Notes: generated by a model from the sequence alone, not told the origin. Positions 14,679 through 52,569 are shown, numbered from the stretch's first letter. The stretch is 64,000 bases of DNA from Desulfurococcaceae archaeon (GCA_038845865.1 JAWBQJ010000006.1:830-64829); one strand, 5' to 3'. A program made the numbers and translations.

Positions 14679-15170
14679 CTACTTTACCGCCACGAATCTA
14701 CTGCTCTTAGTAGCCTTTAAGCCCGGCTCGCCGTGAGTAACCCGCTTCACCGTAGGGCTGAACTCTCCGAGACGGCGTCCAATCATTTCTGGCGTTACTT
14801 TAAACTGCACGTACTCTTTACCATTGTAAACAGCAAATGTTAAGCCGATCATTTCCGGCAAAATAATCATGTCGCGCACGTGAGTTTTAATTACAGCCTT
14901 CTTGGCTAGTTCCGGGTTCTTAATTGTTTCTCTCACCCTCGCTAAGAGCTTTATTTGCGCTTTAGTAAAGCCCCTTAACAAGCTACGTCTTTGTCTAGCG
15001 GGTAGTAGTTGCGCAAATTCATCAAGAGACATGTTAAGTATTTCTTCGAGGGCCTTACCCTTGTATTTAAACTTTCTCCACTCCGGTGGCATATCTTGTA
15101 AGTGCGGGGGTAAGCCGTACTGCCTAGATTGCTGTTGAGACGCCTGTGACACCTTCCCACCCAAAAGCAC
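14679..15170 (-). CDS. rps19: Ribosomal protein uS19
   Basis: A 163-residue protein. The LPARQRRSL segment, [24 protein letters not shown] and [14 protein letters not shown] are the S19 signature. The glutamine-rich N-terminus ([12 protein letters not shown]) is an extension. A 54-nt gap to uL2 is the widest inside the first half of the operon. Confidence 0.95.
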
Positions 15171-15224
15171 ATTACTGGAAGATATCTAGCATTATACGCC
15201 TAAAAAGCATGCTGGGAGACACGG

Positions 15225-15941
15225 CTACTTACCCTTCCTTCTACCGGTTCTTTTAGCGGCAATGTGCCCGACCTTACGACCAGGTGGAGTCGTTTTAGCG
15301 ACTGTTGTCGGCCTTCCTACATGCCTACCTCCGCCATGCGGGTGCGATACAGGGTTCATAGCCACTCCTCTAACTCTAGGCCACCAGTAGCTCTTCGCTC
15401 TCCACTTGTAGAACGCGGCGCCGGCCTTTAGTAAAGGTTTTTCGAGCCTGCCACCACCAGCTACTACGCCTATGGTTGCTCTGGCATTACTCGAAACTTC
15501 TACAACCTTCCCACTAGGTAGTTGTACCTTCACCTTATCACCTGTTTTACTTAGTACGATAGCATACGTTCCACTAGACCTGGCATACCTGCCTCCATCT
15601 CCAGGAACCCTCTCCACGTTCGCCACTTGGGTACCCTCGGGTACAAGCCCTAGAGGCAGTATATTTCCATTGGCGATCGTGGCATTTGGACCAACGTGTA
15701 CTACTTGCCCCTTGTACAAGCCCTCTACAGCAGGAATATAGAATACCTGTCCAGATTCCAGCTCAACTTCGGCAATTGGAACCCATCTACCTGGATCGTG
15801 AATGAGGTTTCTGACAACTCCTCTATAGGTTTTACCGGGATCTAGTGCGGGGTATCTTGCCGGTGCGGTGTGCAGGTGATCTGGCGTCCTCCAGGTGGGC
15901 GACCCCCTTCCGCGTCTTTGAGTTATAATCCTCTTACCCAT
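15225..15941 (-). CDS. rpl2: Ribosomal protein uL2
   Basis: A 238-residue peptidyl-transferase-centre protein. The N-terminus GKRIITQRRGRGSPTWRTP and the C-terminal VRGVAMNPVSHPHGGGRHVG (with the functionally important histidine) are unmistakable. Confidence 0.97.
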   Translation of the reverse strand: MGKRIITQRRGRGSPTWRTPDHLHTAPARYPALDPGKTYRGVVRNLIHDPGRWVPIAEVELESGQVFYIPAVEGLYKGQVVHVGPNATIANGNILPLGLVPEGTQVANVERVPGDGGRYARSSGTYAIVLSKTGDKVKVQLPSGKVVEVSSNARATIGVVAGGGRLEKPLLKAGAAFYKWRAKSYWWPRVRGVAMNPVSHPHGGGRHVGRPTTVAKTTPPGRKVGHIAAKRTGRRKGK

Positions 15942-15959
15942 AATGACACCTCTTCATAC

Positions 15960-16238
15960 CTACATTATACCAAGTCTTGTTGCAACTTCTGTGGCCTTGT
16001 ACTCGGGGTGCAATTTCACATACGCCTTCTTCTCGCCTTTAGGGGTTATCAGCGTTTTGACTTCGGCTACCTTGACATTAAGCAAGTACTCCACGGCACG
16101 CTTTATATCATGCTTTGTAGCATTAATGTCGGTAATGAATGTCAAGGTGTTCTGCTTATCTATAAGTGATAGGGCCTTTTCACTTTGTACCGGTCGTTTT
16201 ATTAGCTTTGCTAAGTATTCCAGCTCATCGCCGCTCAT
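15960..16238 (-). CDS. rpl23: Ribosomal protein uL23
   Basis: A 92-residue tunnel-exit protein: [21 protein letters not shown] at the start and [22 protein letters not shown] at the end. It overlaps the uL4 stop by 4 nt. Confidence 0.96.
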
Positions 16239-17089
16239 ATGTACATCACCTTATACTTGTTTAGGAGCTCTTCGAGGGCCCTCTTCGTGATCACCGTTAA
16301 CCTACCCGGAATACCTCCCGGAGCTAGGTGTAGAATGCTCAGGTTACCTGGTGTCGCTATATCCACTCCAGGGAAGTTCCTCACGGACTTGGCGAAGGGG
16401 CAGCGATAGCTAGTTAGTATAAAGAGCACGCTTCGAGGCTCTACATATCTCCTACCCCGCATTTTGCCCTTTCCAGCCCTAATCCTTACCTTCTCATAGC
16501 TTCTCTTGATATCGTCCCATACGCCGACTTTCTCGAGGAAGATCTTCGAGTCTTTTGCCTTAGAGTACGCATCCTCGACCTCGTTAACCACCACTACAGG
16601 GAGCTTTTCAGTATTAAATACGTGCCCTCTAGCCTTGACTAGTTCGATCCTGGAGGTTGCAGCGAGCGCCGATACTATCGCCATGTACCGTTCATTCTTA
16701 TTCACCTCTTCGTGTATTCTACGGTCAGTTCTCGGCGGAAACGCGGCATGGCCTTTCCTAGCTGATACTACAAACCTAGCTACACCACTAGGCAGTCTCG
16801 GGACCCTCGCCAACCCGTAGCCCACGCCCCAGTACCTCGCAGTTGTCCTCTTGCCGGCTAAGGGGTCTCTGCCTTTGGGCTGTATCATAGCTGTGAATGC
16901 CGATAAGAACGCTCTATTAATAATGTCCTTTCTTATGGGGTAGTAGAAAAGCTCTGGTAGTTCCATCTCACCGACTACATCCCCTAAAACTCCGTATACT
17001 GGTACCGTTAACCTCGCCCCCTCTAAGTGTGGATCCCTGGTACCTGTAAGAACGCGCGTCACGGCTTCATGCACCTTGTTTACTCTCAA
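16235..17089 (-). CDS. rpl4: Ribosomal protein uL4
   Basis: A 284-residue archaeal L4. The tunnel loop region carries [23 protein letters not shown]; the C-terminal [26 protein letters not shown] is the archaeal/eukaryotic part. The GTG/ATG start lies 23 nt inside the end of uL3. Confidence 0.96.
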
Positions 17090-18260
17090 GACTAATGTAC
17101 GTTATCCTAGGGGCGGAGAGCGGTATCCACTCGAGTCTGGGTCTTATAGGGTGCCTGAGTACGAGTAACCTTTTTGTAGGTCCTATAACTGATCCTCTAA
17201 GTAAAATGCACGGCCCATATACAAGTCCGTAGTGCAAGAATCCGCCTTTAACCACGACTTCGAGGCCGCTCGTATTCATTTTGAGTATTCTCTTGTTAAA
17301 CTCGGTTCTTCTGTGGAAACCCGTTTGTCCTGCTTGAGGAGTCTCGCTCATGGAGTACGTGAATGCGGGGCCGCGAGTACCTATTTTTCTACTGCCTTTT
17401 CTATGCTTATGCCACCTTGGTAATTCCTTAACACCGAACCTCTTTACTACGCCTTGAAAGCCGTGTCCCTTAGTGACGCCTATAACGTCGACGAGCTGGC
17501 CCTCTACGAACACGTCAAAGGGTGTTAAGTACGATCCAAGTATTCTCTTAGCGTATTCTAGTTTCTCGTTGATGTCCTTCCCGTGAATCTTTATTTCAAG
17601 CACCTCTACCTTCTTCTTGCCGATTCCCGATAACACGGGTATGGTCGTCACGATCGCGTGGACGTCAACCACATTGCCGCTGAACACTCTCTTGAAGTCA
17701 TCCTCCTTGAATTCGGGTACAAATTTGAACCCGTATTCGCCGTTGGGATCGGGCTTAACGAGTCCATGGTTAGCCTTTCGGAGTCCAAGGAGGTACTTCT
17801 TAACGACTTCTTTCGGTTCCATGCCCCACAGGGGGTTCCGGGCATAGAACTGTTCCGTTGCCTTAAGCACGGAGTCTACGGGGCTTGTCCAAACTTCGCC
17901 TACGGCTTTTAAGTAGCCATCGTAATTTGTGGTGTAGGCCCTAACCCCGATCACCACTATTGGCGGCGCGTCTAGTATGGTCACGGGCGTAATTACCTCT
18001 TTGCCCGTAAACGGCGTGTTAGGCCTGTCCTCTACTATGAGTGCGTGCGTCATTCCGGCTTTATAAGCCGGGTAAGCGAGTAGTACTGGTTTCGACGCTA
18101 TTCCTTTTTTAGAAGCATCCACGCCGTACTTCTCCAACAATATGTCGAACCAGCTTTTCTCGGGCCAAGACTTTATTCTAGGGGTCAGCTCTTCGGCTCT
18201 TTTTCTAGGCCTTACACCGAGACTTCCATGTCTTGGCGCGCTCAGCTTCCTGTGACCCAA
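17067..18260 (-). CDS. rpl3: Ribosomal protein uL3
   Basis: A 397-residue protein, first gene of the operon. [21 protein letters not shown] starts the archaeal L3; the core [31 protein letters not shown] reaches the peptidyl-transferase centre. It is longer than most archaeal L3 proteins I know of, mainly from insertions in the first half (about residues 110-180). Confidence 0.96.
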
Positions 18261-18350: not shown

Positions 18351-19193
18351 TTAAATACCTCTTAAAAAGGCATTTACTATGCCTAGGGTTATGATGAGAG
18401 CTTCTTCCGTCCTAACGGTAACGACTTTCTGGCGTGGCACGGTGTTCCACACGTAGTCCACATAGCGGCGCAGGGCAAACCCTTCTTGGCTAGCTATCTC
18501 GAAGAGGTCGTGTTGAGGGCTACCAAATAATAGCATAATGTCACAGCCACGCATGCTTTCCACGAGCTCTGTGCTGGGGTATTCACCCTTCCTATCAGTT
18601 GCTATTAGGTGCTTTGATACCTTTCTATACCTTTCTAACAGCTCTTTAAGGCAATTAGCGAATGCTAGCCGCGGGCCCACATACACCGGTTCACTAGAGC
18701 ACTCTACGATGCGTTCTTTTTCGCTTCTCACAATGACTGGTAGTATCCCGGCGTCTTGTTTACAATTACCCAATACTACGTAGGGCTCGTTATCCCCAAC
18801 TAGCGCTTTAACTTCACCGTCTACATCCCTGAACACGTAGCCTAGTCGCAGCTCTCCAGCTCTGGGTCTTTGACTTACACTGAATATCTCAAGCCTTATT
18901 GGGGGCAAGATACCAACGTGCTTTAATGTAGGCTTAAAGGGTACTAGCTGCTTCCTTAAATAAGGCGGTGTGAAGAAGTATTTCCAGTGGTCCTCTATTA
19001 TAGCCTTGTGCTCTTTAAACTCCCTGCTAGTTGTTGAAGGCTCCTTGTAGAAGACTACTTCATAGACCCCGAAAATGGATGACCAGCGTGCAACTTGGTG
19101 TATTCTTATGGATTTTAACGCGAGGGCGTGTTCAACCGAGAGAATGCTTGTAGGTAGGGCGACGCGCAGAACTGTTGTGATTTCACCCACCAT
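18351..19193 (-). CDS. SPOUT-family RNA methyltransferase (DUF171)
   Basis: A 280-residue protein related to human SPOUT1/CENP-32 and yeast YMR310c. Visible are a central OB-like insert (GELRLGYVFRDVDGEVKALVGD, about 113-134) and the knotted SAM site near the C-terminus (MLLFGSPQHDLFEIASQEG and TVRTEEALIITLGIVNAFL). The family methylates N3 of uridine in 28S rRNA in humans. Its position next to uL3 is conserved in archaea and suggests an rRNA target. Confidence 0.82.
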   Translation of the reverse strand: MVGEITTVLRVALPTSILSVEHALALKSIRIHQVARWSSIFGVYEVVFYKEPSTTSREFKEHKAIIEDHWKYFFTPPYLRKQLVPFKPTLKHVGILPPIRLEIFSVSQRPRAGELRLGYVFRDVDGEVKALVGDNEPYVVLGNCKQDAGILPVIVRSEKERIVECSSEPVYVGPRLAFANCLKELLERYRKVSKHLIATDRKGEYPSTELVESMRGCDIMLLFGSPQHDLFEIASQEGFALRRYVDYVWNTVPRQKVVTVRTEEALIITLGIVNAFLRGI

Positions 19194-19449: not shown

Positions 19450-21111
19450 CTAGCTACTGCTACGACTTGCTTGGTATGTATTTCGTAGCGTTGTTGGGGG
19501 GTAGGTCTTTATTACCTTGACCTCCTTCTTCAGGGCGTTAACGTAGAGCGCTTCCCCAATACTGAGTTTTGTCAGCAGGGTAGCAAGATCTCCCTTTACA
19601 CCAATAAGCTTTTCGGCCTTTTCAAGGTATTCCTTGCTTCTTGAACCAAATAGCACCACGTTATACGTGTTCTCTGCGATCTCGTCGGGGAGGTCGCCAG
19701 GACTCTGAGTCGAAATTATAACACCCAGTTCTTTGCTCCTACCTTCTCTGACTATTTCCGTGAGCGTCTTTAACTGCAAGATACGCCATGCGTCATCTAT
19801 GGCGAGTATCATTTGTAATTTCTCCTTTTTGTTAAGCAGTAAATACCTGATTAAACCAATGCACATAGACACGTATGCGTTTTGAAAAACAGTACCGTAA
19901 CCACCCACATCTACTAAAGTGCTTTTACCGAGCTGGCTAATCAGCAGGCTGTGATCGGCCCTATTCCTCAAGAACTCGATGAAAGGTAGTAAAACGGAAA
20001 CATGGTAGTGGTTGATAAAGCCACGCTTACCTTCACTTTCAATCGTCAGTAGCGCCTTCAATACCGCTTCCCTGGAAGCCCCACTCGCGTACGCCAAGGC
20101 CTCCACCACTAACGCCCTCCAATCGGCGTTTTCCATCTCGGCGGGCTTCTCGAGGATGTTTATTGGAGCCTTATCCGGTGTCAGCGAGTCCAACACCTTA
20201 CCGGGAAGGTACTTCTTTAAGTCCCCTTTGAAGTCCATCACAACGACATTAACTAAGTTCTCGGCGACGATCTGCTCGATGATGCTAGATAGTAGTGTCG
20301 TCTTGCCCCGTCCCGTCGGCCCTATAATGGCAACGTGCCTGTACAGGTCTTCGATCTTCACCCCTACCGGGTGGGAGCTCGTCTTTTCGAAGCCAAGTAT
20401 GATAAGCCTGTCTAGTGATGGTGCTTCGTCCACGTTCATAGGTTGCATGTACGCTATTCTTTCCACTTCCACTTCGACCTTGCTGATAGAGGGCTTATCC
20501 ATGAGACCAATAGTGCTTAAAAGGATCTGCACGATATCGTTTCGCGCGGCTCTACTCAACCGGAGCCCATAATGTTTGCTAAAGCTACTCACTATTAGGG
20601 ACTCGTAGTAATCAGCAACGCTTTTAGCGGAATCTTTATTTCGTGATTTAACGCGGTAAGACACCACGAGCGATATCCTGGTAAACGGCTTACCATCCAG
20701 TAGAGCAGTGTAAAGAGCTTTTAGCCTGTCAAGTTTTATGTTGAGCCTTACCTTAGTGGACTCCTCTAGGACATTGTGGAGGTCCGCTTGGACGTTCAAG
20801 ATCTCGTTAGCGATCCTGTGGAGGAGGCCGCTCGTATCCAGCTCTTCTTTCACTAAGTGTAAGTGTACTCCTTGGGGTAGGGAATTTAATAGTGCTATGT
20901 AGGATTCTACGAGTTCTTTCAAAGCGCCTTCAGAGAACTCGTGTACCGAGTAGTCGACTTCTCTGCACACGAGGAATCTCGCTAATAAGACATCGTTAGA
21001 TTTGTAGATGACGAGGTCGGGAGGCTCTATTTCTACTTTTTTAACGCCACTTAGCATTACACTAGGCTCAATCGTGCTGAGTAGAGATACTACTTTACTC
21101 AGAACTTTCAT
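19450..21111 (-). CDS. cedB: CedB-like DNA-import ATPase (HerA/VirB4 family)
   Basis: A 553-residue ATPase. Walker A is IIGPTGRGKTTLL (about 263-275), followed by VVMDFKGDL, Walker B MILAIDDAWR (about 430-440), and the glutamine motif ISTQSPGD. This is the HerA/VirB4 central domain, expected to form a hexamer at the membrane. No TM helix is visible. It is the last gene of an operon with cedA1, cedA and cedA2. In Sulfolobus, CedB powers DNA uptake from neighbouring cells after DNA damage. The assignment as CedB rests on the fold plus the gene neighbours; a generic HerA ATPase is the alternative. Confidence 0.8.
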   Translation of the reverse strand: MKVLSKVVSLLSTIEPSVMLSGVKKVEIEPPDLVIYKSNDVLLARFLVCREVDYSVHEFSEGALKELVESYIALLNSLPQGVHLHLVKEELDTSGLLHRIANEILNVQADLHNVLEESTKVRLNIKLDRLKALYTALLDGKPFTRISLVVSYRVKSRNKDSAKSVADYYESLIVSSFSKHYGLRLSRAARNDIVQILLSTIGLMDKPSISKVEVEVERIAYMQPMNVDEAPSLDRLIILGFEKTSSHPVGVKIEDLYRHVAIIGPTGRGKTTLLSSIIEQIVAENLVNVVVMDFKGDLKKYLPGKVLDSLTPDKAPINILEKPAEMENADWRALVVEALAYASGASREAVLKALLTIESEGKRGFINHYHVSVLLPFIEFLRNRADHSLLISQLGKSTLVDVGGYGTVFQNAYVSMCIGLIRYLLLNKKEKLQMILAIDDAWRILQLKTLTEIVREGRSKELGVIISTQSPGDLPDEIAENTYNVVLFGSRSKEYLEKAEKLIGVKGDLATLLTKLSIGEALYVNALKKEVKVIKTYPPTTLRNTYQASRSSS

Positions 21112-21259
21112 TATGTTTATACACCTTGGTAACCAACGTAACGACGCAGATTAAGGCCAGTGACAAGAATACATGAGCGAGCTCTCCCGTGAAGGCGTAC
21201 TGGAGTATGCAGTTTAAAGCAAGAATTATTAGGACCAGTCCACTGACCCGGGGCCTCAT
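21095..21259 (-). CDS. cedA2: CedA2-like two-helix membrane protein
   Basis: A 54-residue frame starting directly after the cedA stop (TAG then ATG) and overlapping the cedB start by 17 nt. It encodes two hydrophobic helices, VSGLVLIILALNCILQ (about 5-20) and VFLSLALICVVTLVTKVY (about 30-47), joined by a short loop (YAFTGELAH). In Sulfolobus the small CedA2 protein accompanies CedA and has two TM helices. The tight overlap with both flanking genes and the hydrophobic pattern support a real gene. Confidence 0.75.
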   Translation of the reverse strand: MRPRVSGLVLIILALNCILQYAFTGELAHVFLSLALICVVTLVTKVYKHNESSE

Positions 21260-22618
21260 CTAGTAGTTCACCACGATCCTCGCTATGGAGGTGGACGCTC
21301 CACCCAGAAGCCTGGCTACGTTGAGGGTAATCGCACCAAGCATGGTTATATACACGAGTGGAAGGACAGTCAATTCGATGAACATCCGAGTTACGTAAAA
21401 CAATAAGTTTTCCGGTGCAAGGGGGTCTAACCCAAGCGCGGCGATCGTGTAAGGGTATAAATCCACGTTGATGGGTGTCGTGGAGTAATAGCTTAAGTAC
21501 ACCTCCACACGGTGATTACCAGGCTTAAGGATGTAGGTGTACACCGTGTAACGTATACCATACCAATCCAGCGACTCTACGCCTAGGGGCGTCACGGTCT
21601 CGCTGTCAATGTATACTTGTAACACGTCATTGGATTCCGTGTAGAGCTTGAAACCCGATGACTCCGTGGACGCGTTTAAAATGAGTACCACTCCATCGCT
21701 GCTTCTAAGCACCTCTTTAACTTCGATAGACCCGTTGAATAGCATGAAGCGATTAGCGGCTATTGCTAGTATGTTGGGAATGCTTATAGCTAAGTTCCAG
21801 TTTCTACCGGTAACGCCACTTAGCGTCACTAAATACCCATTACCAGCAATATCGAATCTCGCCACGTGATCGGTACACGGGAATCCGTGCACCTCGTCAA
21901 CTACGAGAACACCCTTACCATCAACTTTGTACCGGTAAACTAGTGCATCCTCAATATAGCCTTCGATAACGGCTTGCCCAAAGGGAGTGCCCGACGCATC
22001 CACGAGCATTATTGTCGCCGTGCAGAGGTTCTTTGATGTAATGAGGGACCCTGACATGTTGGAAAACGTGCTCACAAACAGGGGCATTAAGGGCATTCCC
22101 ACGGAGAATACAAGCGTGATGGCGATTATAGTCGCCCCGATGTTCCTGGTTAGTTTAAAGGGCACGGCGTGTAGTACTATTCCGAGTGCTATGAGAAACG
22201 GGGAAGCGGAGTATATGATCGTGTAGACAATAGACGTCGCTATGAGGGTTGTCAGAGAAGTCGTCATGAGGCCCGTTACTTGGCTAATGAAGCCTTGGGC
22301 AAAGAAACCAAGCCCTAGCTTACTTAGGAGCACTCCAACGGCCTTTAAAACCGCGATAAGGGCTAGGAGCACGCCTACCCTCTCGGTAAGCCATGTGGTG
22401 TAAAGAGCTAGGTCTGATCCCAGGAGACGGCTGAAGAAGTCTATTGAGTACAAGAGGGTCCTGTACGAAAAGGTGAGTATGCAGGAAAACACGCCTTCTG
22501 TAACTAGAGACCTGCCAAGCCTCTTAATAGCAAGGAAGGGTACCGGTAACGCCCTTATAGCTAGACCAGTACAGTACGATAACACGGACAGGTAAAACGA
22601 GAGTGCCAGCAAGTCCAT
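21260..22618 (-). CDS. cedA: CedA-like DNA-import channel protein
   Basis: A 452-residue polytopic membrane protein. I chose the ATG at 22618 (MDLLALSFYL), because an upstream frame start would overlap cedA1 by 106 nt and adds non-membrane sequence. About six TM helices fill residues 1-190, an extracellular beta-rich domain runs from about 195 to 395, and two TM helices close the protein. The first 55 residues resemble CedA1: ALPVPFLAIKRLG matches GLPIPFLRIKKLG. In Sulfolobus CedA forms the membrane part of the DNA importer. The sequence varies fast, so context carries much of the call. Confidence 0.78.
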   Translation of the reverse strand: MDLLALSFYLSVLSYCTGLAIRALPVPFLAIKRLGRSLVTEGVFSCILTFSYRTLLYSIDFFSRLLGSDLALYTTWLTERVGVLLALIAVLKAVGVLLSKLGLGFFAQGFISQVTGLMTTSLTTLIATSIVYTIIYSASPFLIALGIVLHAVPFKLTRNIGATIIAITLVFSVGMPLMPLFVSTFSNMSGSLITSKNLCTATIMLVDASGTPFGQAVIEGYIEDALVYRYKVDGKGVLVVDEVHGFPCTDHVARFDIAGNGYLVTLSGVTGRNWNLAISIPNILAIAANRFMLFNGSIEVKEVLRSSDGVVLILNASTESSGFKLYTESNDVLQVYIDSETVTPLGVESLDWYGIRYTVYTYILKPGNHRVEVYLSYYSTTPINVDLYPYTIAALGLDPLAPENLLFYVTRMFIELTVLPLVYITMLGAITLNVARLLGGASTSIARIVVNY

Positions 22619-22629
22619 GTTGCCCACAT

Positions 22630-22896
22630 TCACGGCATTTGAGGGGGCTGAGGCATAGGTGCTTGAAATGATGATGTGATGTAGGCTATTATTGCGAAAA
22701 CGGTGGTTCCCATTGCAAGCCAGAATGCAGCCCATACAGCATCTTCAATGAACCTTCCACCCAGCTTCTTAATTCTTAGAAACGGTATAGGAAGCCCCTT
22801 GATCAGCCAGCCCACAGCCCATGCTAATAGGAAAATGAACCAGGCTACTATGACGGTGATCGTAATAAGGCCCTTCACAAACTCCACGAGGTCCAT
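22630..22896 (-). CDS. cedA1: CedA1-like pilin subunit of the Ced system
   Basis: An 88-residue protein with two TM helices (about 8-32 and 49-72) joined by the short charged loop KGLPIPFLRIKKLGGRFIED. This is the architecture of CedA1, shown in Aeropyrum to form a VirB2-like conjugative pilus. The tail is proline-rich (QAPMPQPPQMP). First gene of the operon; GGGTG precedes the ATG at a suitable distance. Confidence 0.78.
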   Translation of the reverse strand: MDLVEFVKGLITITVIVAWFIFLLAWAVGWLIKGLPIPFLRIKKLGGRFIEDAVWAAFWLAMGTTVFAIIAYITSSFQAPMPQPPQMP

Positions 22897-22968
22897 TTAA
22901 AACACCCTAAGAATACATATGCTCGATAAGTAAGGGGGATTAGCGAAACTGTTTCATAGGGTTTTAAA

Positions 22969-24903
22969 ATGAGGTGGGCATGGCCGCGGACAGTTAAGAT
23001 ATACTGGGATCCATGGAATAACGTCCCGGTAATTAAACCTAGACAGGAGGAAATAGATCTCCTATATCAACTTAGACTAGGTGAGCCGGGAGATGCCCGT
23101 CCCGCATTTCGTGGTGACTTAGAAAAGTTAAAGGCAGCGGTAAAATACGAGTTCGGGGACGAGAAACTGTACTTTAGGCTTATTGAAGGGAAATTTGTGC
23201 TGTTGAATAAGATACCCCACTGGGACGTAATGTATGAAGTTGTGAGTTCGGGCAATGTGGTGGGCCAGCTATACTACGATCCTTACTCATCCATGTGGAG
23301 GTTTAGGCTAACTTATCAAGGAGCGTGCATAGCTGTTCAAGAAAACATCATAGATACAATTAAATGTAAGCCCCCCATCTATACGGGTAAGGTACTGGCA
23401 CCTCGAATAAGTACGAGTAGTAGGCAGGTCGTGGTAGTTGATGAGAAGTATGATATACGGGGAATCGGAGAAGTAAGTAGTGATGGAGTTGTACTTGTGA
23501 AGGCGTTTCACGACCGGTCCTTACCCGTCGAAACAAGCAATAAGCCCGCTACTATACATGATGTACTTAACCGCAATAGTGAAGGGCTAGAGCTTATGGA
23601 GGAAAAGGCAATAAGGTATTTAAAGAGGCTTCAGAGCAGATTTGGTGGGGCATCGAAACCCGTAGTCTCATATTCAGGCGGTAAAGACAGCCTGGTAGCA
23701 CTAGACCTAGCACACAGGGCTTACGGCGACCTTGACATGGTTTTCAATGATACGGGGTTGGAGTTACCGGAGACTTTGAAAAACGTAAAGGAAGTGGCTG
23801 AATTTTACGGCTACAAATTACACATTGCATCAGCGGGCGATATATTCTGGAAGGCAGTTGAAGTTTTCGGGCCTCCGGGCAAGGACTATCGTTGGTGTTG
23901 TAAAGTAGCTAAGCTTGTACCCATAGCTAAGCTGACTAAAACCCTGTGGCCTGGTGGCGCGTTCAATATCGTGGGGCAACGTGCCTACGAGTCCTTGGAT
24001 AGAGCGAAGAGCCCCCTGATTTGGCGCAATAGGTGGATACCCCACATGGTGAGTACCTCACCGGTTCAGTACTGGAGCCAGCTTGCGTGCTGGCTATACG
24101 TGTTCAAGTACAAGTTACCCTATAACAAGCTTTACGAGGAGGGTTTTAATAGGCTTGGATGCTACCTTTGCCCCTCGTGCGCTCTGGCCGAGTTCGAAGA
24201 CACCAAGAGGATTTACCCAGACCTGTGGAGTACTTGGGAAGCCGTGCTCGAAAGGTGGAGGGAGAAACTAAACATGCCGCCAGAATGGATTAGACTGGGT
24301 CTTTGGAGATGGCTTAGCCCGGCAACGGCTAAGACGAGGGTGGCCCATCGCCTGCCCGGCTACATCATTAACTGGAAAGAGGAGTATTCGAAGAGGCTAG
24401 AAGAAAACAGCATAGGGTTAAAGCCCGTGGAAGCCGTTGTTACTGGCAATTCACTGCTGGTTAAATTTAGCCGTGACCTCTTCTCGGAGAAGTTAGGTGA
24501 CATGCTCATCGAGAACTTAATTAGCATGGGCTTTAAACGAGTGTGCGAAAATCCACTTACATTCGAGAAAAATAACGCCGTGTTCGAGATCCAGGGCAAC
24601 TACATTAAGGTATTGCCCTACAACGAGCACTCCTTTGAAGATCTCGTAGATGTGATTAAAATTGTGTATAGAATGAAGGGTTGCGTGTTCTGTGGTAGTT
24701 GCGTATTATGGACTGGAAGGGGGTTAGTAAAGTTAACTTTGAAAGGCCCTATAGCACTTAGTACACTCGATGATAAAAACGCAAGAGTCTACATAGAGGT
24801 CTGTCCTATAAGTGACCAACTAGTGGAGAAGGTCGTTGCCCCCTTGATCACTAACGATCACAAGTCGTTTAAAAGAAAGACACGTAGAAAACCACTTCTT
24901 TAA
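22969..24903 (+). CDS. PAPS-reductase-family PP-loop protein with ferredoxin-like tail
   Basis: A 644-residue protein. The centre is a PP-loop ATPase: VVSYSGGKDSLVALDLA (about 227-243), then FNDTGLELPETL and the paired cysteines of RWCCKVAKL. Further cysteines (GCYLCPSC, about 400) and a C-terminal GCVFCGSC plus VCP (about 563-610) could hold an Fe-S cluster or zinc. The N-terminal 200 residues are an archaeal-specific region. Family members reduce PAPS or APS, or transfer sulfur to other targets; no sulfate-assimilation genes lie nearby, so the substrate is open. Divergent from cedA1. Confidence 0.75.
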   Translation: MRWAWPRTVKIYWDPWNNVPVIKPRQEEIDLLYQLRLGEPGDARPAFRGDLEKLKAAVKYEFGDEKLYFRLIEGKFVLLNKIPHWDVMYEVVSSGNVVGQLYYDPYSSMWRFRLTYQGACIAVQENIIDTIKCKPPIYTGKVLAPRISTSSRQVVVVDEKYDIRGIGEVSSDGVVLVKAFHDRSLPVETSNKPATIHDVLNRNSEGLELMEEKAIRYLKRLQSRFGGASKPVVSYSGGKDSLVALDLAHRAYGDLDMVFNDTGLELPETLKNVKEVAEFYGYKLHIASAGDIFWKAVEVFGPPGKDYRWCCKVAKLVPIAKLTKTLWPGGAFNIVGQRAYESLDRAKSPLIWRNRWIPHMVSTSPVQYWSQLACWLYVFKYKLPYNKLYEEGFNRLGCYLCPSCALAEFEDTKRIYPDLWSTWEAVLERWREKLNMPPEWIRLGLWRWLSPATAKTRVAHRLPGYIINWKEEYSKRLEENSIGLKPVEAVVTGNSLLVKFSRDLFSEKLGDMLIENLISMGFKRVCENPLTFEKNNAVFEIQGNYIKVLPYNEHSFEDLVDVIKIVYRMKGCVFCGSCVLWTGRGLVKLTLKGPIALSTLDDKNARVYIEVCPISDQLVEKVVAPLITNDHKSFKRKTRRKPLL

Positions 24904-27746
24904 TCACTCACCGTCCCCCCTTTCTCCTTCAGATACTTCTTTACCCTAAGAAACCTCTTCTCGCACTCGTAAAGTTCAGTCACGAGGTCTGCACCGCTTA
25001 AAACCCTATTGATGATCCTGATTGCTTCCTGCGTTCCTACACCCAGAGCGGATAATGCTAAGACAGCCTTGTCACCGTACCTGTAGAGTAGAATTGCCCT
25101 TTCTACGAGGTCTTTACGTAGTTTCTGCTCTTCGGGAGTGAGCTTCTCTCCACGTCTGAGCTTCTTAACGAGTTCAAGTTCCCTACTGGCATCTCCTTTA
25201 ACCAATGTCAAAGTCGCAAGACCGCATTTAGGGCACGAGAACTCGTTTAGTTCAACGATCTCCCTGGCCCGGGCTTCTCTGTGATAACCACACCTTAGGC
25301 ATATTACTGATACGCGCCTATTAAGTAATCGCTCTAGAAAGCTATTAGTATCGAGCGATGGCCACTCTTTAATGAGCGGGGTTTCAATGTAGCGCAGTAG
25401 GGTTATATGGTGCTCTTGTAGTTTACTATAACGTCTTAGCACTACGTTTACTTTTCCCTCAGCAACACGCTCTGCCAGCTCTATGAACGAATCTATATCA
25501 TAATCTCGAAAGAACACCTCTTTAAGGGCCTCTTTACCTATGATGGTGTCACTAAATGCTTCGAGGAGTTTTCTACTTACATAGGTTGAATCGGGTGATA
25601 TCGCCCCGAACCTCTGAGCTACCTGGTATATCCTCCACAAGTATGCAGAGCTGTCCTTAGCAATTCTTTCTAGGAGTGACCTATTCGCATAGGTCTTCAG
25701 GTTCTTAATGACCTCATACACCGCGTGTACTGGGCCTTTAACCGGGCCGGGTACGTGTATGCCCGCCAGCTGTATGTAGACAGCATAAGGCGTTGAATAG
25801 GCCTGGACCTTTATATAGGGGTAGGACGTCTTCAAGGTGTACTTTACAAGATCCTTTATAAGGGCGTTAACCTTACTTCCGCCATATACGTTAACTACAA
25901 CTAATCCGTACTCCTCCAGGTGATCGATGTATATGTTCTCGCTATCCCCGAGCTCTCTAACATGCCTTAAGCAGTCGATGGGCTCTTCTAGTATTAGGAG
26001 TTCTCTTAGGTCCTCGGGAAGGTCTCCGTGCTCCTTTATGTACTTCACGACTTCGCCAACTTCTTGCGCAACCGAGAACTCTACGGGGATATTTTCCCCT
26101 TCCCAATGGGGTATGATTACTTCTTCCGCAGACGTCTTTGCTGGTTCTACGTAGAGCTTGCGCTCCCTCTCGTCGTAACTAACGACTCTCCACGGCCTCC
26201 CGGCAAGTACTATCACACTATCTGGGTCTAAGTTTGTTACAACGTATTCTTCGTCGAGGACGCCCACTTTACCCCCCGAACCAGCATCTACTACGTGCAC
26301 GTCCCTCGTGGCCGGTATCATAGACGTCTTGTAAACGTATAGTTTAGTCTTCCTAGTTGGAATTATGACATTGTTTTCCCCCTTCACTCTTACTATTCTC
26401 GTATACAATAGGTAATCTACGATTTCGTTGAACTCCTCAAACGACAGGTCAGAGTATAGGGGGTGCCTCTTAACTTCATTGTACAGCTTATCGAGAGGTA
26501 CGCCGTCGGAATGCAAGAGCGTGTACAATGCGATGGCGTACGCCAGAACATCAAGGGGTTTGGGTATTATAACCTCCCGTTCGAGGAGGCCGTTACGGGC
26601 TCTTCGAGCTATTACGAGCGCTTCCAGTAGGTGTAAAATATTACTGGAAGTTATGATCAGCCCCCTACTTACATCGCCGAGTCTATGCCTGCTCCTACCT
26701 ACTCGTTGAATAAGCCTAGCTGCTTGGCGTGGAGACATGTACTGCATTACGTATTCGACATGCCCAATATCGATTCCAAGTTCCAGGCTTGAAGTTGAAA
26801 CGAGCATGTTAAGCTTTTTTTCACGGAAACACGTTTCCACCTTTTCTCTGTGCGACCTGGAGAGGCTTCCGTGGTGCACATCGAGCTTCAATTCCAATCC
26901 AAGCTCCTCTATTTGTTTTCTAAGTAGTGTACTCAGGCTCTCAGCTAGGGATCGCGTGTTTGTGAACACTATTACGGACTTTTCCTCTAATGCTTTTTCG
27001 ACAATCTTCTCCAGCCTGGCCGCAAGCGCTTCATCGTCAACGTGCGTAAGTATTTTCTTACATACTTCCGTCCTGCAAGCCGGAACCATAACCCTTAGTT
27101 CGAGATCTCTGGTAGAAGGGTCTTTGAGCATCACTACAGGTAGCGCACTTCCTGGTGAAATCAGTTTTAACGCCTTATCCTCTTCTTGAAGAGTTGCAGT
27201 AAGCGCTACCTTCACGAGACTTTTGTTTAAGTAAGATTCTAAAAGGTACAGCACGGTTAGAAGTAGCAGTCCCCGCTTACTTTCAAGCATGTCACGGTAC
27301 TCGTCAATTATAACATATTCAAGGTTCCCTAGGTAGGGGCGTATTTCCTCGTTTATAATAATGTAGTTGAACGTTTCCGGCGTAGTTATCAGAATGTGTG
27401 GCGGCGACTTCGCTATGCTTCTCCTTATGGAAGAGGGGGTGTCGCCGTGCCTGACCGCGACATCGAGTTCAAAGCAAGTGCCTATTCTTTTAAGCCTTCT
27501 TTCAATGTCCCGATTTAGTGCTCTAAGAGGAGTTACGTATATAGCGGTTATAGCTCGTTTACTCTGAGACGCTGTCTTGAGCATTATTGGGAAAACAGCT
27601 GCTTCCGTCTTCCCGCTTCCCGTGGGTGCTACAACTACAAGCGACCTGTCTCCTTTGCTTAACTCAATTAAGCTCTTTCTCTGAATTTCCGTTAACTTCT
27701 GGTAACCAAGTTCTTTGAGGCAGGTCGCGATCTTGTTAAGATCCAT
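24900..27746 (-). CDS. Lhr-type large DEAD/H-box helicase
   Basis: A 948-residue superfamily 2 helicase. Walker A VVVAPTGSGKTEAAVFP (about 37-53), Ib ITTPETF, motif II IIDEYRDM, motif III LTATL, and motif VI QRVGRSRHR are in order. The winged-helix and Lhr C-terminal parts follow, with a zinc-ribbon inserted near residue 805 (CLRCGYH...CPKCG). Motif II reads DEYR, not DEAH or DEVH. Lhr proteins unwind RNA:DNA or DNA duplexes in repair. It converges on the PP-loop gene with a 4-nt overlap. Confidence 0.88.
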   Translation of the reverse strand: MDLNKIATCLKELGYQKLTEIQRKSLIELSKGDRSLVVVAPTGSGKTEAAVFPIMLKTASQSKRAITAIYVTPLRALNRDIERRLKRIGTCFELDVAVRHGDTPSSIRRSIAKSPPHILITTPETFNYIIINEEIRPYLGNLEYVIIDEYRDMLESKRGLLLLTVLYLLESYLNKSLVKVALTATLQEEDKALKLISPGSALPVVMLKDPSTRDLELRVMVPACRTEVCKKILTHVDDEALAARLEKIVEKALEEKSVIVFTNTRSLAESLSTLLRKQIEELGLELKLDVHHGSLSRSHREKVETCFREKKLNMLVSTSSLELGIDIGHVEYVMQYMSPRQAARLIQRVGRSRHRLGDVSRGLIITSSNILHLLEALVIARRARNGLLEREVIIPKPLDVLAYAIALYTLLHSDGVPLDKLYNEVKRHPLYSDLSFEEFNEIVDYLLYTRIVRVKGENNVIIPTRKTKLYVYKTSMIPATRDVHVVDAGSGGKVGVLDEEYVVTNLDPDSVIVLAGRPWRVVSYDERERKLYVEPAKTSAEEVIIPHWEGENIPVEFSVAQEVGEVVKYIKEHGDLPEDLRELLILEEPIDCLRHVRELGDSENIYIDHLEEYGLVVVNVYGGSKVNALIKDLVKYTLKTSYPYIKVQAYSTPYAVYIQLAGIHVPGPVKGPVHAVYEVIKNLKTYANRSLLERIAKDSSAYLWRIYQVAQRFGAISPDSTYVSRKLLEAFSDTIIGKEALKEVFFRDYDIDSFIELAERVAEGKVNVVLRRYSKLQEHHITLLRYIETPLIKEWPSLDTNSFLERLLNRRVSVICLRCGYHREARAREIVELNEFSCPKCGLATLTLVKGDASRELELVKKLRRGEKLTPEEQKLRKDLVERAILLYRYGDKAVLALSALGVGTQEAIRIINRVLSGADLVTELYECEKRFLRVKKYLKEKGGTVSD

Positions 27747-27826: not shown

Positions 27827-29698
27827 ATGGTGGAAATGGGGATTAGTGCGTTAAACTTGATTAAAGTGCTGGCGTCGAGTTTATGCAATCTTTTACTAGT
27901 TCTCCTGCTCACGGTGCAGGGCCCAGCTGAGGCAGCCTTCTCCGCGTCACTGGGTATTATAACGCCGTGGTTGGACATAATTGTTTCCGCGGTGCACATA
28001 GCGGTATCGTTCATATTACTAAACAATGCTCTCTCAGCCTTGCTCAACAGGACGTTCTTCATAGTGTACCTCGTCTCCATGGGTTATGAGCATGTGAACA
28101 ACGCGTTGCTCTTCAGGGAAATGGCGGGGTTAATGTTATCCCTGCCTCTAATTGTCATCGTAAAACACGTGACCGGTTTACCGAGCACTGCACTAGAGTT
28201 CAAGAGGCTCGTGAAGAGTCGTGTAGGGTTTAAAGTAGGTGCCAACGAGCTGTTCGTTCTCCTGATCCCCCACATTGGGGGGGTGATATCCGTACTCGCC
28301 ACCTCGTTCTCGGCGTACTCAACGGATATTTACGTGATCGTGGTGAACAATGCACTGGTACCGGTAATCCTCCTCTTTATGGTAATGCTCGTGAGTGAGG
28401 AGTTATCGGGTACCGCCGACCGCGCTATAATGGGCTTTACTTCGGGGCTTGGAGTTCTTGGATTAGCGCCACTGATTTCGCTAATGGCCATGGAAAGAAC
28501 CAGTGGCGCCTTATACCCATCAAGGGCGCTCTATGCCAGTAAACGCGGGTTATACTTGGGGAAGGCTGTTGCCACTCTAACCTATGGGTATCCTAGCAAC
28601 GCGTACAGAAAACTCAGAAAAAGTGCCAGGTTCTCAGGAGAGGGCAGGAGAGCCTGGTACTGGCGGGCAGTACAACACTCTCTGTATGTTGACCTCAACG
28701 AGCTGAACACTCCACATATAATCGTTATAGGCTCGTCGGGCTCTGGAAAGACAACACTTGTCAAGCATATAGTGCTGGAATCCAGTAGAGTTTACGGGCA
28801 CAACGTGCTGATCATAGACCAGCACGGGGAGTATAAAGACCTCGCTAGTTTTATTAAGTGCAAAATAATAGATGCTTCCAGGTGCTCGTTAAACCCATTG
28901 GTTTTAGCGAACACATCTCCTCGTGAAAGAGCGCTCCAACTCGCACACGCGGTATCAGTAACATTTAGGCTAGGCTTATTGCAGAGGAAAATGCTCGAAG
29001 AGGTGATAATGAAGACCTATGAGCTGAAAGGCATTACCTCGGGGGATCCGGCTACGTGGAGGAGGGATCCACCCACGTTACAAGACCTCGTAGGGGTTTG
29101 TAAGGAACTCGGTAAGGAGATCCCGGAGTACAACAGGCTACTTCCATACATAGTTCTACTGAGTGAACATATAAGCGGGGGCGAGTGGCTTAGCGTAGAG
29201 GAGTTGCTCTTAGAAAGCGCCATTATAGACATGACTGGTCTATCGAGCGACTTCGCACGAGCGCTATTCCTGGATACGTTAATGTACACATTAATAAATA
29301 AGATGTACACTACTAGGTTAACTAAGAAAGTGATGCTCGTAATTGAGGAGGCGAGAGGTCTATTACCGAGATCTCTCGCGAGGGAGCTTCTATCGAGACT
29401 TTTTGCAGAGAGTAGGAAGTTCGGTTTTTCAATAGTCGTCGTTTCTCAAGAGATAAGGAGAATTCCTAAAGTGCTGGTGGATAACGCGGGGCTTAGGGTA
29501 TTCTTTGTACTAAATGAACCTAGAAGCGTCGAAGAAGCCTCAAAGATCATTGCTGGCTTAGATGTGAAAGAGAAATCGCTAGTTGTGGCAGAGGCCATCC
29601 GAACGCTCGCACCCCACACATTTATGATACACGCGACAGGCGTAGATGCGATCTTCGTCGTTAAATCGCCCTTCTTAACGAGGAGCAAGTCCGCCTAG
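27827..29698 (+). CDS. Membrane-anchored HerA-like ATPase
   Basis: A 623-residue protein of two halves. Residues 1-230 are largely hydrophobic with about six TM helices (such as SLCNLLLVLLLTVQG, VSAVHIAVSFILLNNALSAL and VVNNALVPVILLFMVMLV). Residues 290-610 form a HerA/FtsK-like motor: Walker A VIGSSGSGKTTLVKH (about 304-318), IDQHGEYKDL, Walker B VMLVIEEARGLLP and VVSQEIRRIPK. The layout recalls conjugative coupling proteins such as VirD4, but with more TM segments. The cargo is unknown. A short space separates it from the divergent Lhr gene. Confidence 0.78.
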   Translation: MVEMGISALNLIKVLASSLCNLLLVLLLTVQGPAEAAFSASLGIITPWLDIIVSAVHIAVSFILLNNALSALLNRTFFIVYLVSMGYEHVNNALLFREMAGLMLSLPLIVIVKHVTGLPSTALEFKRLVKSRVGFKVGANELFVLLIPHIGGVISVLATSFSAYSTDIYVIVVNNALVPVILLFMVMLVSEELSGTADRAIMGFTSGLGVLGLAPLISLMAMERTSGALYPSRALYASKRGLYLGKAVATLTYGYPSNAYRKLRKSARFSGEGRRAWYWRAVQHSLYVDLNELNTPHIIVIGSSGSGKTTLVKHIVLESSRVYGHNVLIIDQHGEYKDLASFIKCKIIDASRCSLNPLVLANTSPRERALQLAHAVSVTFRLGLLQRKMLEEVIMKTYELKGITSGDPATWRRDPPTLQDLVGVCKELGKEIPEYNRLLPYIVLLSEHISGGEWLSVEELLLESAIIDMTGLSSDFARALFLDTLMYTLINKMYTTRLTKKVMLVIEEARGLLPRSLARELLSRLFAESRKFGFSIVVVSQEIRRIPKVLVDNAGLRVFFVLNEPRSVEEASKIIAGLDVKEKSLVVAEAIRTLAPHTFMIHATGVDAIFVVKSPFLTRSKSA

Positions 29699-30441: not shown

Positions 30442-30455
30442 GTGTTAAAACCCGG

Positions 30456-30465
30456 TTTTTTTATA
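30456..30465 (+). promoter_or_regulatory. TATA box for the PCNA gene
   Basis: TTTTTTATAT lies 37-46 nt before the PCNA ATG at 30502, leaving a leader of about 15-20 nt that contains GGGGAT. The divergent gene starts at 30441, so the whole promoter is packed into 60 nt. Confidence 0.5.
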
Positions 30466-49208: not shown

Positions 49209-49294
49209 CGCGACACCGTTCTGCAGTGTTAATATCATCATGTATTGCGTTATAAGCGCTTAGGAATACTTTCGCTTAACCCTATCCAAGTACG

Positions 49295-49354: not shown

Positions 49355-49750
49355 ATGAAGGGCATATCCGGAATAGTCGCAACAGCGATATTACTAGCGC
49401 TGACCATAGCAGGGGGCGTTCTGATGTACACTTATGTGACAAGCTACCTGAACACGGCCGTGGATACGGGGAAAATAGTGGTTGAAAACGCCTACTACAT
49501 AACACCGCTTAAGAGGCTCACTATAGAGGTTAGAAATGTAGGAACGCGCGAAGTAAAAGTCAACGGCGTTGACATGATCCTCTCGGGTACTGCGCGCAGT
49601 GACACTAGAAACATTACCCCTCCTCTATCAATTTCGCCTGGGGAAGCGAGGCAAATTGTGTTATACGATGTTAACGAAGCTCCTCAATACGTAATCATAG
49701 TGTACGGTAACGGCTCGATGACAGAGCCCGTTCCCGTGAGGGTGCACTAA
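49355..49750 (+). CDS. Archaeal type IV pilin-like protein
   Basis: A 131-residue protein with a class III signal: MKG then a hydrophobic helix ISGIVATAILLALTIAGGVL (4-23). A prepilin peptidase would cut after KG or KGISG. The rest is a beta domain (LTIEVRNVGTREVKVNGVDM, ISPGEARQIVLYDV). It is followed by the ATPase and platform genes of the same machine. No prepilin peptidase is in the window. Confidence 0.82.
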   Translation: MKGISGIVATAILLALTIAGGVLMYTYVTSYLNTAVDTGKIVVENAYYITPLKRLTIEVRNVGTREVKVNGVDMILSGTARSDTRNITPPLSISPGEARQIVLYDVNEAPQYVIIVYGNGSMTEPVPVRVH

Positions 49751-49770: not shown

Positions 49771-51291
49771 ATGTTAAAATCACTTATCAAGGCTTTTTTC
49801 ACTCTCCCCCATGTACTAGGTCGTACTTTACCCGGAGATGACCTATATCGGAGGGATCGGTTTTTAAAAGACATTGTAGAAACGCTCGTAAACTCCTACG
49901 TTAAGAGATATAGGCTAGAGGATGTGCAATTAGATAATACGTTGTTGACGTACAGTTTGAGGGGTTTACTCAGCATACATGTTGGGCTTCTCGGAGAGGA
50001 ACTGTACTACGTCATCCAGGAACCCCCAACCACGGAAACAGAATTGGGTGGCGTCATAGACAGATTCATAGTTAACATCACGAGTAACAGGGATCAGGGT
50101 GAAGACTATAGATTTAAGGGAGAAGACGTAGCGGGGGACATGGACAAGATCACGTATAATTTCATCAAAATAACCAGTGGATGGGGGCCGTTAACGCCGT
50201 TCATTCTCGATCCCTACGTAGAGGACATTTCCCTTAGCAAAAGCACTGGCAGAGTGTACGTTGTTCATAACAAGTTTTCGTGGATGGGGTGGCTAAAATC
50301 AAACATGGTGCTAGAACCCGAGCTCGTAGACAGATTAGTCGTATCGCTATCACGTAGAATTAAAAAGCACATCTCGTTTGTAAATCCTCTCGCCGAGGGT
50401 GCTTGTGGAGACGGCTTCAGAGTAAGCTTACTTTATGGAGATGCTGTGTCTCCCCACGGCAGTAGCCTAGTTGTAAGAAAGCGTAGCGGCATTACTTGGA
50501 CTATTACAAAGCTCATAAATGAGGGCTTTTTAACATCGATCATAACATCCTACTTGTGGCTCGTCCTCGAGAACAAGGGCTGGATCATAATAGCCGGGCA
50601 CGTGGGATCGGGTAAAACAACGCTACTTCAAGCACTCCTATCGTTAATACCACCATACAAAAAAGTAATTACAATTGAGGATACGCCCGAGATATCGGGT
50701 ACTACTGGTCTGTGGGAGCCCTTAGTTGAGAAGAGCGAGGTTTTCACACAGACTTCACAAATAGACTCTTTCACTCTATTGAAATTCGCTCTAAGAAGAA
50801 GACCTGACTACATCGTTATCGGGGAAGTACGAGGAGTCGAAGCTAGATTGCTCGTTCAAGCATCGCGGTTAGGGCACGGCGTGCTGAACACAATACATGC
50901 CGATAGTCCTGAGTCCGTACTAAAGAGGCTAATAGCGCCGCCTATTTCGATTCCAAGGAACTTGCTTAACAACATATGGACCATAGTACTCACAGGCGTG
51001 CAAGGCAGTAAGAGAAAGGTCGTTTCGCTCTCCGAGATAGGTGACGACACTTCGCCGGCGGAGGTGTGCTCTAATACGGATGAGAGTTGCGCCATAGAAA
51101 GGGTCGTGAGCTCCTCCACGAGGTTGGGGCGGCTCTACTCCTCTAAGGACGAGCTGTACGGAGAAATAATTAGGAGAGCGGTTTTTCTCGAAAGGCTAGT
51201 TTCCAAAGGGATATTTACGATCAGCGATCTAGCGGTCAAGTTGCTCGAGTTCTACGGCAAGGTAGAGGAGGCTGTAAGGGAGTATCGGTGA
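49771..51291 (+). CDS. Type II/IV secretion-type ATPase (pilus assembly)
   Basis: A 506-residue ATPase of the GspE/PilB/VirB11 superfamily. Walker A IIAGHVGSGKTTLLQALLSL (about 272-291), Asp box ITIEDTPEI, Walker B RPDYIVIGEVRGVEA and the His box GHGVLNTIHADSPES are in order. The N-terminal 200 residues form the typical N1/N2 domains (GWGPLTPFILDPYVEDIS). It should power pilus extension using the membrane protein next to it. Confidence 0.93.
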   Translation: MLKSLIKAFFTLPHVLGRTLPGDDLYRRDRFLKDIVETLVNSYVKRYRLEDVQLDNTLLTYSLRGLLSIHVGLLGEELYYVIQEPPTTETELGGVIDRFIVNITSNRDQGEDYRFKGEDVAGDMDKITYNFIKITSGWGPLTPFILDPYVEDISLSKSTGRVYVVHNKFSWMGWLKSNMVLEPELVDRLVVSLSRRIKKHISFVNPLAEGACGDGFRVSLLYGDAVSPHGSSLVVRKRSGITWTITKLINEGFLTSIITSYLWLVLENKGWIIIAGHVGSGKTTLLQALLSLIPPYKKVITIEDTPEISGTTGLWEPLVEKSEVFTQTSQIDSFTLLKFALRRRPDYIVIGEVRGVEARLLVQASRLGHGVLNTIHADSPESVLKRLIAPPISIPRNLLNNIWTIVLTGVQGSKRKVVSLSEIGDDTSPAEVCSNTDESCAIERVVSSSTRLGRLYSSKDELYGEIIRRAVFLERLVSKGIFTISDLAVKLLEFYGKVEEAVREYR

Positions 51292-51318: not shown

Positions 51319-52569
51319 GTGAAGCTGAGTAGATGTCTAGATGAGAGCTACTTGGACTTCTTAATGCACCTGCACGGGCTCGAGATCAACGGCTTAAAGG
51401 CTTACGATTTATTTAGCGCTATTCGCAAAGAAGAGGTGGAAATAGCAGATTGCTACAAGGTCTTAGCGAGACTGTATGGTTTGTTGGAAACCGCACTTGG
51501 TGATCCGCAGTTAGCTCTATATAAACTAAGCGATATTGCTTCAGGCTCTAAGCTCACGAGTTTTTTAAGAGGGTATGGAAGTGTGCTCTTGACGAGTGGT
51601 GATACACGGACATACGTATCAGCGGCGCTCAGAACGGAGTTCGCAGCGCTTAGAGCTAAAATTGGTGAAAAGCTCAAGTTCATTGAGGTTCTCTATGAAG
51701 CGATATTAGTGGCGGTACTAAGTATTTCTATCCTCTCGGTACTGCCGTTATGGCCTTTACCGCTCGTTGTAGGCATTTTCATTCTACAACTCGTAGGGTT
51801 AACGAGTTACATCACGGCTGTTTACGTGACCAAGTGGATGTACTATAACACGAGTGCCCTTTCAGCTGCGTTGGAGGTGTTTTTCATTTTAGCGTCGAAC
51901 CTACTATTAGTATCGGTACTATACGGTCTCGTAGTGCACTTACTAGTATTTGGTGTGCTATGCGTAATTGTAATGAAGCCCGTGAAACGCAGAGTAGCGA
52001 TTGAAGGTGAGTCGTTAAAAATACTGAACGATACGTACTCTCAAATAATGCTTGGAGAGCCGGCGGATATAGCCCTACTGAACTCTTTGAAGAGGTCTCC
52101 GCTACTAGAGTTTAGACTACTTCTGCATAGCTTATTAAGCGGCTTTAGGGCAGCGGAGATCATTCGTAAACTGAAATTTCCCGTACTGGCCTTCAAGGTG
52201 ATGTCGGGGCTAGTGACCTTAATGCATTACAGCCCCCCGAACAGTACCCACGTGACTTCGATAATTCAGTTTGTAGATGAGGTCAGTAACCTTAGGAAAT
52301 ACGTTGAGGAGAAGGCAAAACATTACTTACTCTACTCCGGGATCGTCGTTTTACTAATCGTTGCGTCTTACGTGATGATCGCGAGGATGCCAGCAGTCGT
52401 GAACGCCAATGCAAGAGTTCTCGGGGTTTATGCATATGTTAGTGCAATTCTAACGGCCATGCCCGCGTGTCTCTTAAAAGACCGTACTTTCATAGGCTCG
52501 AAACTGGCCGTACCGGCAACAATCCTAGCATCCATGACATTAGTACTCCTATACACTGGCATATTTTAG
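51319..52569 (+). CDS. Pilus assembly platform protein (TadC/GspF-like)
   Basis: A 416-residue membrane protein. A soluble N-terminal region (about 1-115) leads to TM helices (about 132-155, 159-170 and 185-215), a second cytoplasmic domain, then a C-terminal group of TM helices ending LVLLYTGIF. This is the archaeal TadC/FlaJ/GspF plan. It follows the ATPase by 27 nt, as usual for such pairs. Confidence 0.82.
   Translation: MKLSRCLDESYLDFLMHLHGLEINGLKAYDLFSAIRKEEVEIADCYKVLARLYGLLETALGDPQLALYKLSDIASGSKLTSFLRGYGSVLLTSGDTRTYVSAALRTEFAALRAKIGEKLKFIEVLYEAILVAVLSISILSVLPLWPLPLVVGIFILQLVGLTSYITAVYVTKWMYYNTSALSAALEVFFILASNLLLVSVLYGLVVHLLVFGVLCVIVMKPVKRRVAIEGESLKILNDTYSQIMLGEPADIALLNSLKRSPLLEFRLLLHSLLSGFRAAEIIRKLKFPVLAFKVMSGLVTLMHYSPPNSTHVTSIIQFVDEVSNLRKYVEEKAKHYLLYSGIVVLLIVASYVMIARMPAVVNANARVLGVYAYVSAILTAMPACLLKDRTFIGSKLAVPATILASMTLVLLYTGIF

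Follow-up and report, generated by a model that had tools for sequence, protein, structure and literature searches.

A Ced DNA-import operon in a Desulfurococcaceae archaeon, probably damage-switched together with an Ups-like pilus

Genetic work on Ced has been done in Sulfolobaceae, and Ups pili have been reported absent elsewhere, which raises the question of how other Crenarchaeota meet for DNA exchange. We addressed this at a locus of four genes (cedA1, cedA, cedA2, and cedB) in a 64,000-nucleotide (nt) stretch of DNA, hereafter the window, from a Desulfurococcaceae archaeon (GCA_038845865.1, JAWBQJ010000006.1:830-64829) whose GTDB genus also contains a Thermosphaera sp. metagenome-assembled genome. 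An earlier note had described a tight operon for a two-helix pilin-like protein, a polytopic protein, a second two-helix protein, and a HerA/VirB4 ATPase, and had read it as a complete Ced system, the crenarchaeal apparatus for acquiring DNA from other cells. The minus strand between 22896 and 19450 does hold the four genes, in the order cedA1-cedA-cedA2-cedB. We consider it likely that they form a Ced DNA-import operon, probably switched by DNA damage through the motif ANTTTC and Orc1-2 together with an Ups-like pilus. The damage element common to ced and the Ups-like pilus outside Sulfolobaceae is the most valuable result. That element, the Ups-like cluster in the window, an ectodomain in CedA, and a distant gene for the ATPase CedD were absent from the earlier note. 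The operon and its promoter contain the following features.

22630..22896, minus strand: cedA1, VirB2/CedA1-type pilin, 88 amino acids (aa), two hydrophobic helices
21260..22618, minus strand: cedA, VirB6-like membrane channel, 452 aa, ATG 11 nt past cedA1
21491..22027, minus strand: CedA ectodomain, residues 198-376, beta domains between membrane helices, from alignment and model
21095..21259, minus strand: cedA2, 54 aa, two hydrophobic membrane helices, beginning right at the cedA stop
19450..21111, minus strand: cedB, VirB4/HerA-like ATPase, 553 aa, without a membrane helix, Walker A at residues 264-271
22945..22950, minus strand: DNA-damage response element (also called the ultraviolet [UV] box), AGTTTC, 54 nt upstream of the cedA1 start codon
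22926..22933, minus strand: putative TATA-like box (TTACTTAT) of the cedA1 promoter, picked by eye in aligned promoters from its position relative to the element

The junctions measure 11 nt (cedA1/cedA), 0 nt (cedA/cedA2), and a 17-nt overlap (cedA2/cedB), spacings typical of a single transcript. The listed 491-aa open reading frame (ORF) of cedA is overlong and begins within cedA1; its start was corrected to 22618.

As judged from sequence comparison, the locus is a genuine Ced operon, ordinary in layout for its relatives. Profile searches matched all four components, the small CedA1 and CedA2 included, to Ced counterparts, and the Ced identity proposed in the earlier note is further supported by the solved pilin, a tree of the ATPases, and structure models. 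CedA1 scored 106.5 bits against the NCBIfam model Ced_CedA1, passing the curated cut-off of 100, and matched the solved Aeropyrum pernix pilin (PDB 8dfu) with an E value of 3e-22. CedA matched the Ced_CedA model (113 bits; E value, 1.5e-32), and CedB matched the DNA_import_CedB model (E value, 9e-23). The phylogeny of 93 ATPase proteins resolved three clades, namely, CedB, CedD, and a third, membrane-bound family (support, 1.0), and placed the window CedB with Sulfolobaceae CedB (support, 0.98), separate from CedD. The structure model of CedB (predicted local distance difference test [pLDDT], 86.9) aligns with the VirB4 of R388 across most of its length, and Foldseek TM-scores by query were about 0.45-0.50 for VirB4 versus 0.38-0.45 for HerA.

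The layout was read in about 60 ced loci from a class sample of 229 genomes, in which G000 is the window genome, f9 denotes Sulfolobaceae, and g69 is a Sulfolobaceae genus. The same ced gene set was found repeatedly across the class. A small two-helix ORF lies right after cedA in 39 of 59 loci; among control genes such an ORF followed in 15 of 647 cases, and in roughly half of these the control gene was cedA1 itself. CedA2 profiles from Sulfolobaceae and Desulfurococcaceae aligned over 51 columns with 86% probability (E value, 5e-6), while all other pairs of two-helix sets gave <10% in the same comparison. Because CedA2 evolves fast, its identity rests on position and a moderate profile score. 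The position is kept in most families and vacant in f2, f3, and f4, which agrees with the report that A. pernix has no CedA2 (PMC11868833); its conservation tempers the published view of CedA2 as non-conserved (PMC9905601). Two other identities for CedA2, a detached N-terminal hairpin of CedB and an equivalent of VirB3, found no support: deep families and Sulfolobaceae have CedA2 alongside a CedB with membrane helices, and comparisons among profiles that did not include VirB3 gave low probabilities.

The promoter of cedA1 carries a published damage element. In Sulfolobus, ANTTTC upstream of the TATA box is required for UV-responsive ups promoters (Le et al. 2017, PMC5817253), and the spacing of the cedA1 element is as in those promoters (PMC5817253). 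Using the published motif and the published window of -80 to -30 (Le et al. 2017), we found it in 16 of 19 Desulfurococcaceae cedA1 promoters; among other genes of these loci, taken as controls, 11 of 290 had it (p 5e-17, a value that overstates the strength because related genomes are not independent). A stricter form of the motif at a fixed position separated 16/19 cedA1 promoters from 0/290 controls, a contrast that is partly post hoc since the motif was first noticed by eye. Most Desulfurococcaceae genera sampled carry the element. ANTTTC also stands at about -54 in 7/7 g69 genomes and at -62 in some f8 genomes; other families, taken singly, showed weak or no enrichment. In Sa. islandicus, Orc1-2 binds ANTTTC and mediates the response of a cedA1 reporter to 4-nitroquinoline 1-oxide (NQO) (PMC9738581). 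Of the two Orc1/Cdc6 genes in the window genome, one, on contig C1 around 247492-247773 at locus L321, groups with Sulfolobaceae Orc1-2 (support, 0.995), and Sulfolobaceae orc1-2 promoters carry the element in 3/3 genomes. These comparisons suggest that cedA1 is probably induced by damage through ANTTTC and the Orc1-2 ortholog. The published accounts of the damage element that we found concern only Sulfolobaceae-type archaea.

The same motif precedes a pilus gene cluster in the window, which consists of the following features.

49268..49273, plus strand: second DNA-damage response element, ACTTTC, 87 nt upstream of the UpsA-like pilin
49355..49750, plus strand: UpsA-like type IV pilin, 131 aa, type IV pilin N-terminus, from NCBIfam UpsA
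49771..51291, plus strand: pilus assembly ATPase (putatively UpsE/ArlI type), 506 aa, T2SSE match with an E value of 2e-27
51319..52569, plus strand: probable pilus membrane platform, 416 aa, seven hydrophobic segments, from hydropathy and position only

The pilin scored 41 bits against UpsA (E value, 1.5e-10) and did not reach the curated cut-off of 130, for which reason we call the cluster Ups-like and not Ups. UpsA was the best curated match for five pilins, those of the window and of four relatives (31-44 bits; E values, 2e-7 to 3e-11), and an archaellin of the same genome matched it only at an E value of 0.1, which indicates that the model does not simply draw in any pilin. ANTTTC occurs in the pilin promoter of 21 of 25 relatives, 86-97 nt before the start, and the other four carry a one-base variant there; this distance exceeds the -80 to -30 window of Le et al. 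2017. The pilus ATPase was found in 33 of 40 family genomes and was missing in g2 and g9 genomes (G070-072 and G086-087), as were CedA1 and the third ATPase of the tree. Two nearly complete genomes without CedA1 (G085 and G108) retain the pilus cluster, so the link between ced and the pilus is not strict. As published, the ups cluster occurs in no species outside Sulfolobales (PMC3892339).

Taken as a damage-switched import system, the locus would work as follows. DNA damage would act through the Orc1-2 ortholog at ANTTTC to induce ced and the Ups-like pilus together; the Ups-like type IV pilus would bring cells into contact; CedA1 would form a hollow conjugation-type pilus as the DNA conduit; CedA would be the VirB6-like membrane channel at the pilus base, with its added beta ectodomain directed outward; CedA2 would be a small partner in the membrane; and CedB would act as the VirB4-like motor, probably assisted by the distant CedD, and pull incoming DNA into the cell for repair by recombination. 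This reading predicts that damage induces Ced and the Ups-like pilus jointly outside Sulfolobaceae, and the shared element makes an older damage-triggered exchange programme testable by one expression experiment. A bolder extension, which we find almost as easy to accept as to doubt, is that the Orc1-2/ANTTTC circuit over Ced and the Ups-like pilus predates Sulfolobaceae and operates in Desulfurococcaceae, with an ectodomain that aids docking and was lost in Sulfolobaceae. If true, archaea would have had from early on an SOS-like programme in which DNA is exchanged through cell contact.

Several points weigh against the damage-switched import system. The element is six bases long and not present in several families; the ced loci of S. 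acidocaldarius do not carry it (Le et al. 2017, PMC5817253), nor do the orc1-2 and cedD promoters of the window genome. CedA reaches 113 bits against a curated equivalog cut-off of 330, and CedB reaches 81 bits against one of 700, although the latter appears tuned to Sulfolobaceae, as only f9 genomes in the sample passed it. In addition, CedD has 378 aa and seemingly does not contain the N-terminal part said to complement CedB.

The shortness of the motif and the orc1-2 and cedD promoters also favor the alternative that survives best, in which ANTTTC belongs to the ordinary core promoter and Ced expression is constitutive in Desulfurococcaceae, as does a match in the archaellin promoter of the same genome. 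We regard this as unlikely, though a serious contender, given the rarity of ANTTTC among control genes at this distance compared with its frequency in cedA1 promoters and its recurrence at the UpsA-like pilin promoter, where a similar C-rich stretch follows in most relatives. The archaellin match (contig C6 89521-89538, minus strand, locus L319) is AGTTTC 58 nt before the start codon. A promoter-like sequence with the element, a C-rich stretch, and a TATA-like box also lies on contig C1 (57249-57266, plus strand, locus L298), with no clear gene within 140 nt downstream. Patterns extended by the C-rich stretch gave few sites across the window genome, fewer than a reversed control pattern, and therefore cannot define a wider regulon.

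The structure of CedA bears on what the apparatus would do. Its AlphaFold2 model (pLDDT, 90.8) places helices at residues 2-193, beta strands at 198-376, and a helix at 402-437; with seven helices plus the C-terminal one, it is polytopic and channel-like. The membrane part can be aligned to Sulfolobaceae CedA. A fold search of CedA against the PDB found no direct VirB6 similarity, and the VirB6 link comes from PMC9905601. The N-terminus of a profile built from 46 CedA relatives matches the CedA1 pilin (E value, 8e-11), which reproduces the published CedA-CedA1 relation (PMC9905601). Sulfolobaceae CedA measures 260-266 aa (5/5 in the sample) and other CedA proteins about 450-500 aa, the latter being longer because an insert precedes the last membrane helix. 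This insert is the ectodomain of about 180 residues, found in the window CedA and other non-Sulfolobaceae relatives and not in Sulfolobaceae CedA. In the structure model its first half resembles transthyretin, CnaB, and carboxypeptidase-regulatory domains, and 2 of the 46 relatives have a CarboxypepD_reg match (E value, 8e-6). By its predicted topology the ectodomain would face outside, and we hypothesize that it serves in cell-cell docking; as a defined part, it can be removed experimentally as a test. We found no earlier description of this variant in the publications consulted.

The likeness of the ectodomain to surface Ig-like and CnaB domains of pilins and adhesins, together with a CedB that has no membrane helix and a CedD that is short in Desulfurococcaceae, could also point to a Ced-derived apparatus used mainly for adhesion, protein secretion, or the like instead of DNA import, with the ectodomain as a surface adhesin. 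We judge this improbable, as CedA1, CedA, CedA2, and CedB are kept together with the damage element and an Orc1-2 ortholog, and Aeropyrum-like genomes, whose CedA1 builds a conjugation-type pilus, as established for A. pernix (PMC9905601), encode the long CedA as well.

Adjacency of the four genes had been presented in the earlier note as unlike Sulfolobus. While cedB does stand apart in Sulfolobaceae, adjacency is usual in the rest of the class: cedB comes after cedA, either directly or with cedA2 intervening, in f1, f3, f4, f8, and f10 to f14 and lies elsewhere in the genome in f9, f7, and f2, which makes adjacency the common arrangement and Sulfolobaceae one of the exceptions. The gene order is cedA1-cedA-cedB in L079, an Aeropyrum-like locus with a CedA1 almost identical to the Aeropyrum pilin. 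The ced operon lies between ribosomal protein genes and PCNA/Lhr, a neighborhood kept in several families. The VirB2, VirB4, and VirB6 homologs do resemble a minimal conjugation set, but conservation of this neighborhood across families without integrase or attachment sites, and CedA1 in 177 of 229 class genomes, make it highly implausible that the locus is a module for conjugation carried by an integrated plasmid or another mobile element and not a cellular system.

The description of the set as complete was an overstatement, since CedD is encoded outside the window on contig C3 of the same genome. CedD, a third ATPase, and the conserved neighbors of ced are as follows.

Contig C3 145788-146921, minus strand (G000, locus L282): CedD, CedD clade, 378 aa
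27827-29698, plus strand: third VirB4/HerA-like ATPase, 623 aa, about six N-terminal helices, membrane-bound
22969-24903, plus strand: PAPS-reductase-domain protein, conserved ced neighborhood
24900-27746, minus strand: Lhr-type helicase, conserved ced neighborhood
30442-31254, plus strand: PCNA, conserved ced neighborhood

CedD scored 255 bits, under the cut-off of 600, and compared with Sulfolobaceae CedD it apparently has neither the membrane part nor most of the N-terminal domain; CedD is similarly short in f7. A split of the VirB4 N-terminal domain between CedB and CedD has been proposed (PMC11868833), which may not apply unchanged in Desulfurococcaceae given a CedB without a membrane helix and a CedD of 378 aa. 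The ATPase at 27827-29698 was considered as CedD and rejected, as it forms its own clade and the true CedD lies on contig C3. A single copy of this third ATPase occurs in 94 of 229 class genomes, and its gene often lies less than 15 kb from ced; in one family (L085/L289) it lies directly upstream on the same strand, in L289 before cedA1. It is a candidate for a new Ced component. Against this candidacy, the entire neighborhood is conserved, the ATPase was not found, at the threshold used, in the Aeropyrum-like family despite the presence of ced there, and in most relatives the damage element is missing from the promoter of the ATPase gene. Immediately downstream (29755-30054, plus strand) lies a gene for a small acidic protein of 99 aa, and L289 has a similarly acidic 103-aa ORF in the corresponding place.

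On its other side the ced operon adjoins an RNA methyltransferase gene and ribosomal protein genes (18351-19193 and 14679-18260, minus strand), and Sulfolobaceae ced lies near other genes from the same ribosomal/SecY/adenylate kinase region. RadA (40764-41741) and both subunits of topo VI, A and B (44848-49241), are in the window, as the earlier note recorded; topo VI subunit A (44848-47610, minus strand) contains an intein with a LAGLIDADG domain at roughly residues 262-745.

The Ced system of Sulfolobaceae comprises CedA, CedA1, CedA2, CedB, and CedD, with CedE in addition in Saccharolobus. The window locus shares four components with it in the identical order cedA1-cedA-cedA2, and with genus g69 an identical promoter element at equal distance from cedA1. 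Unlike in Sulfolobaceae, cedB is adjacent, CedA has an ectodomain, a membrane helix is absent from CedB, and CedD is short. A search for CedE confined to the window identified no separate protein, the CedE model matching CedA and CedA1 alone. The Ced pilus of A. pernix (PDB 8dfu, PMC9905601) is built from a homologous CedA1 pilin, and the Aeropyrum-like L079 shares the long CedA and adjacent cedB, whereas Aeropyrum-like genomes lack a cedA2 in the position between cedA and cedB and encode a CedB with a single membrane helix at its N-terminus. The Ted system of Thermoproteales is an analogous VirB2/VirB4/VirB6 set for DNA exchange, set apart from Ced by a published lack of recognizable sequence similarity (PMC9905601). 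The pilus cluster differs from the Ups of Sulfolobales in a UpsA score far under the cut-off and in its order, here pilin-ATPase-platform, and resembles it in a pilin closest to UpsA, a pilus ATPase, a probable platform, and the damage element in its promoter.

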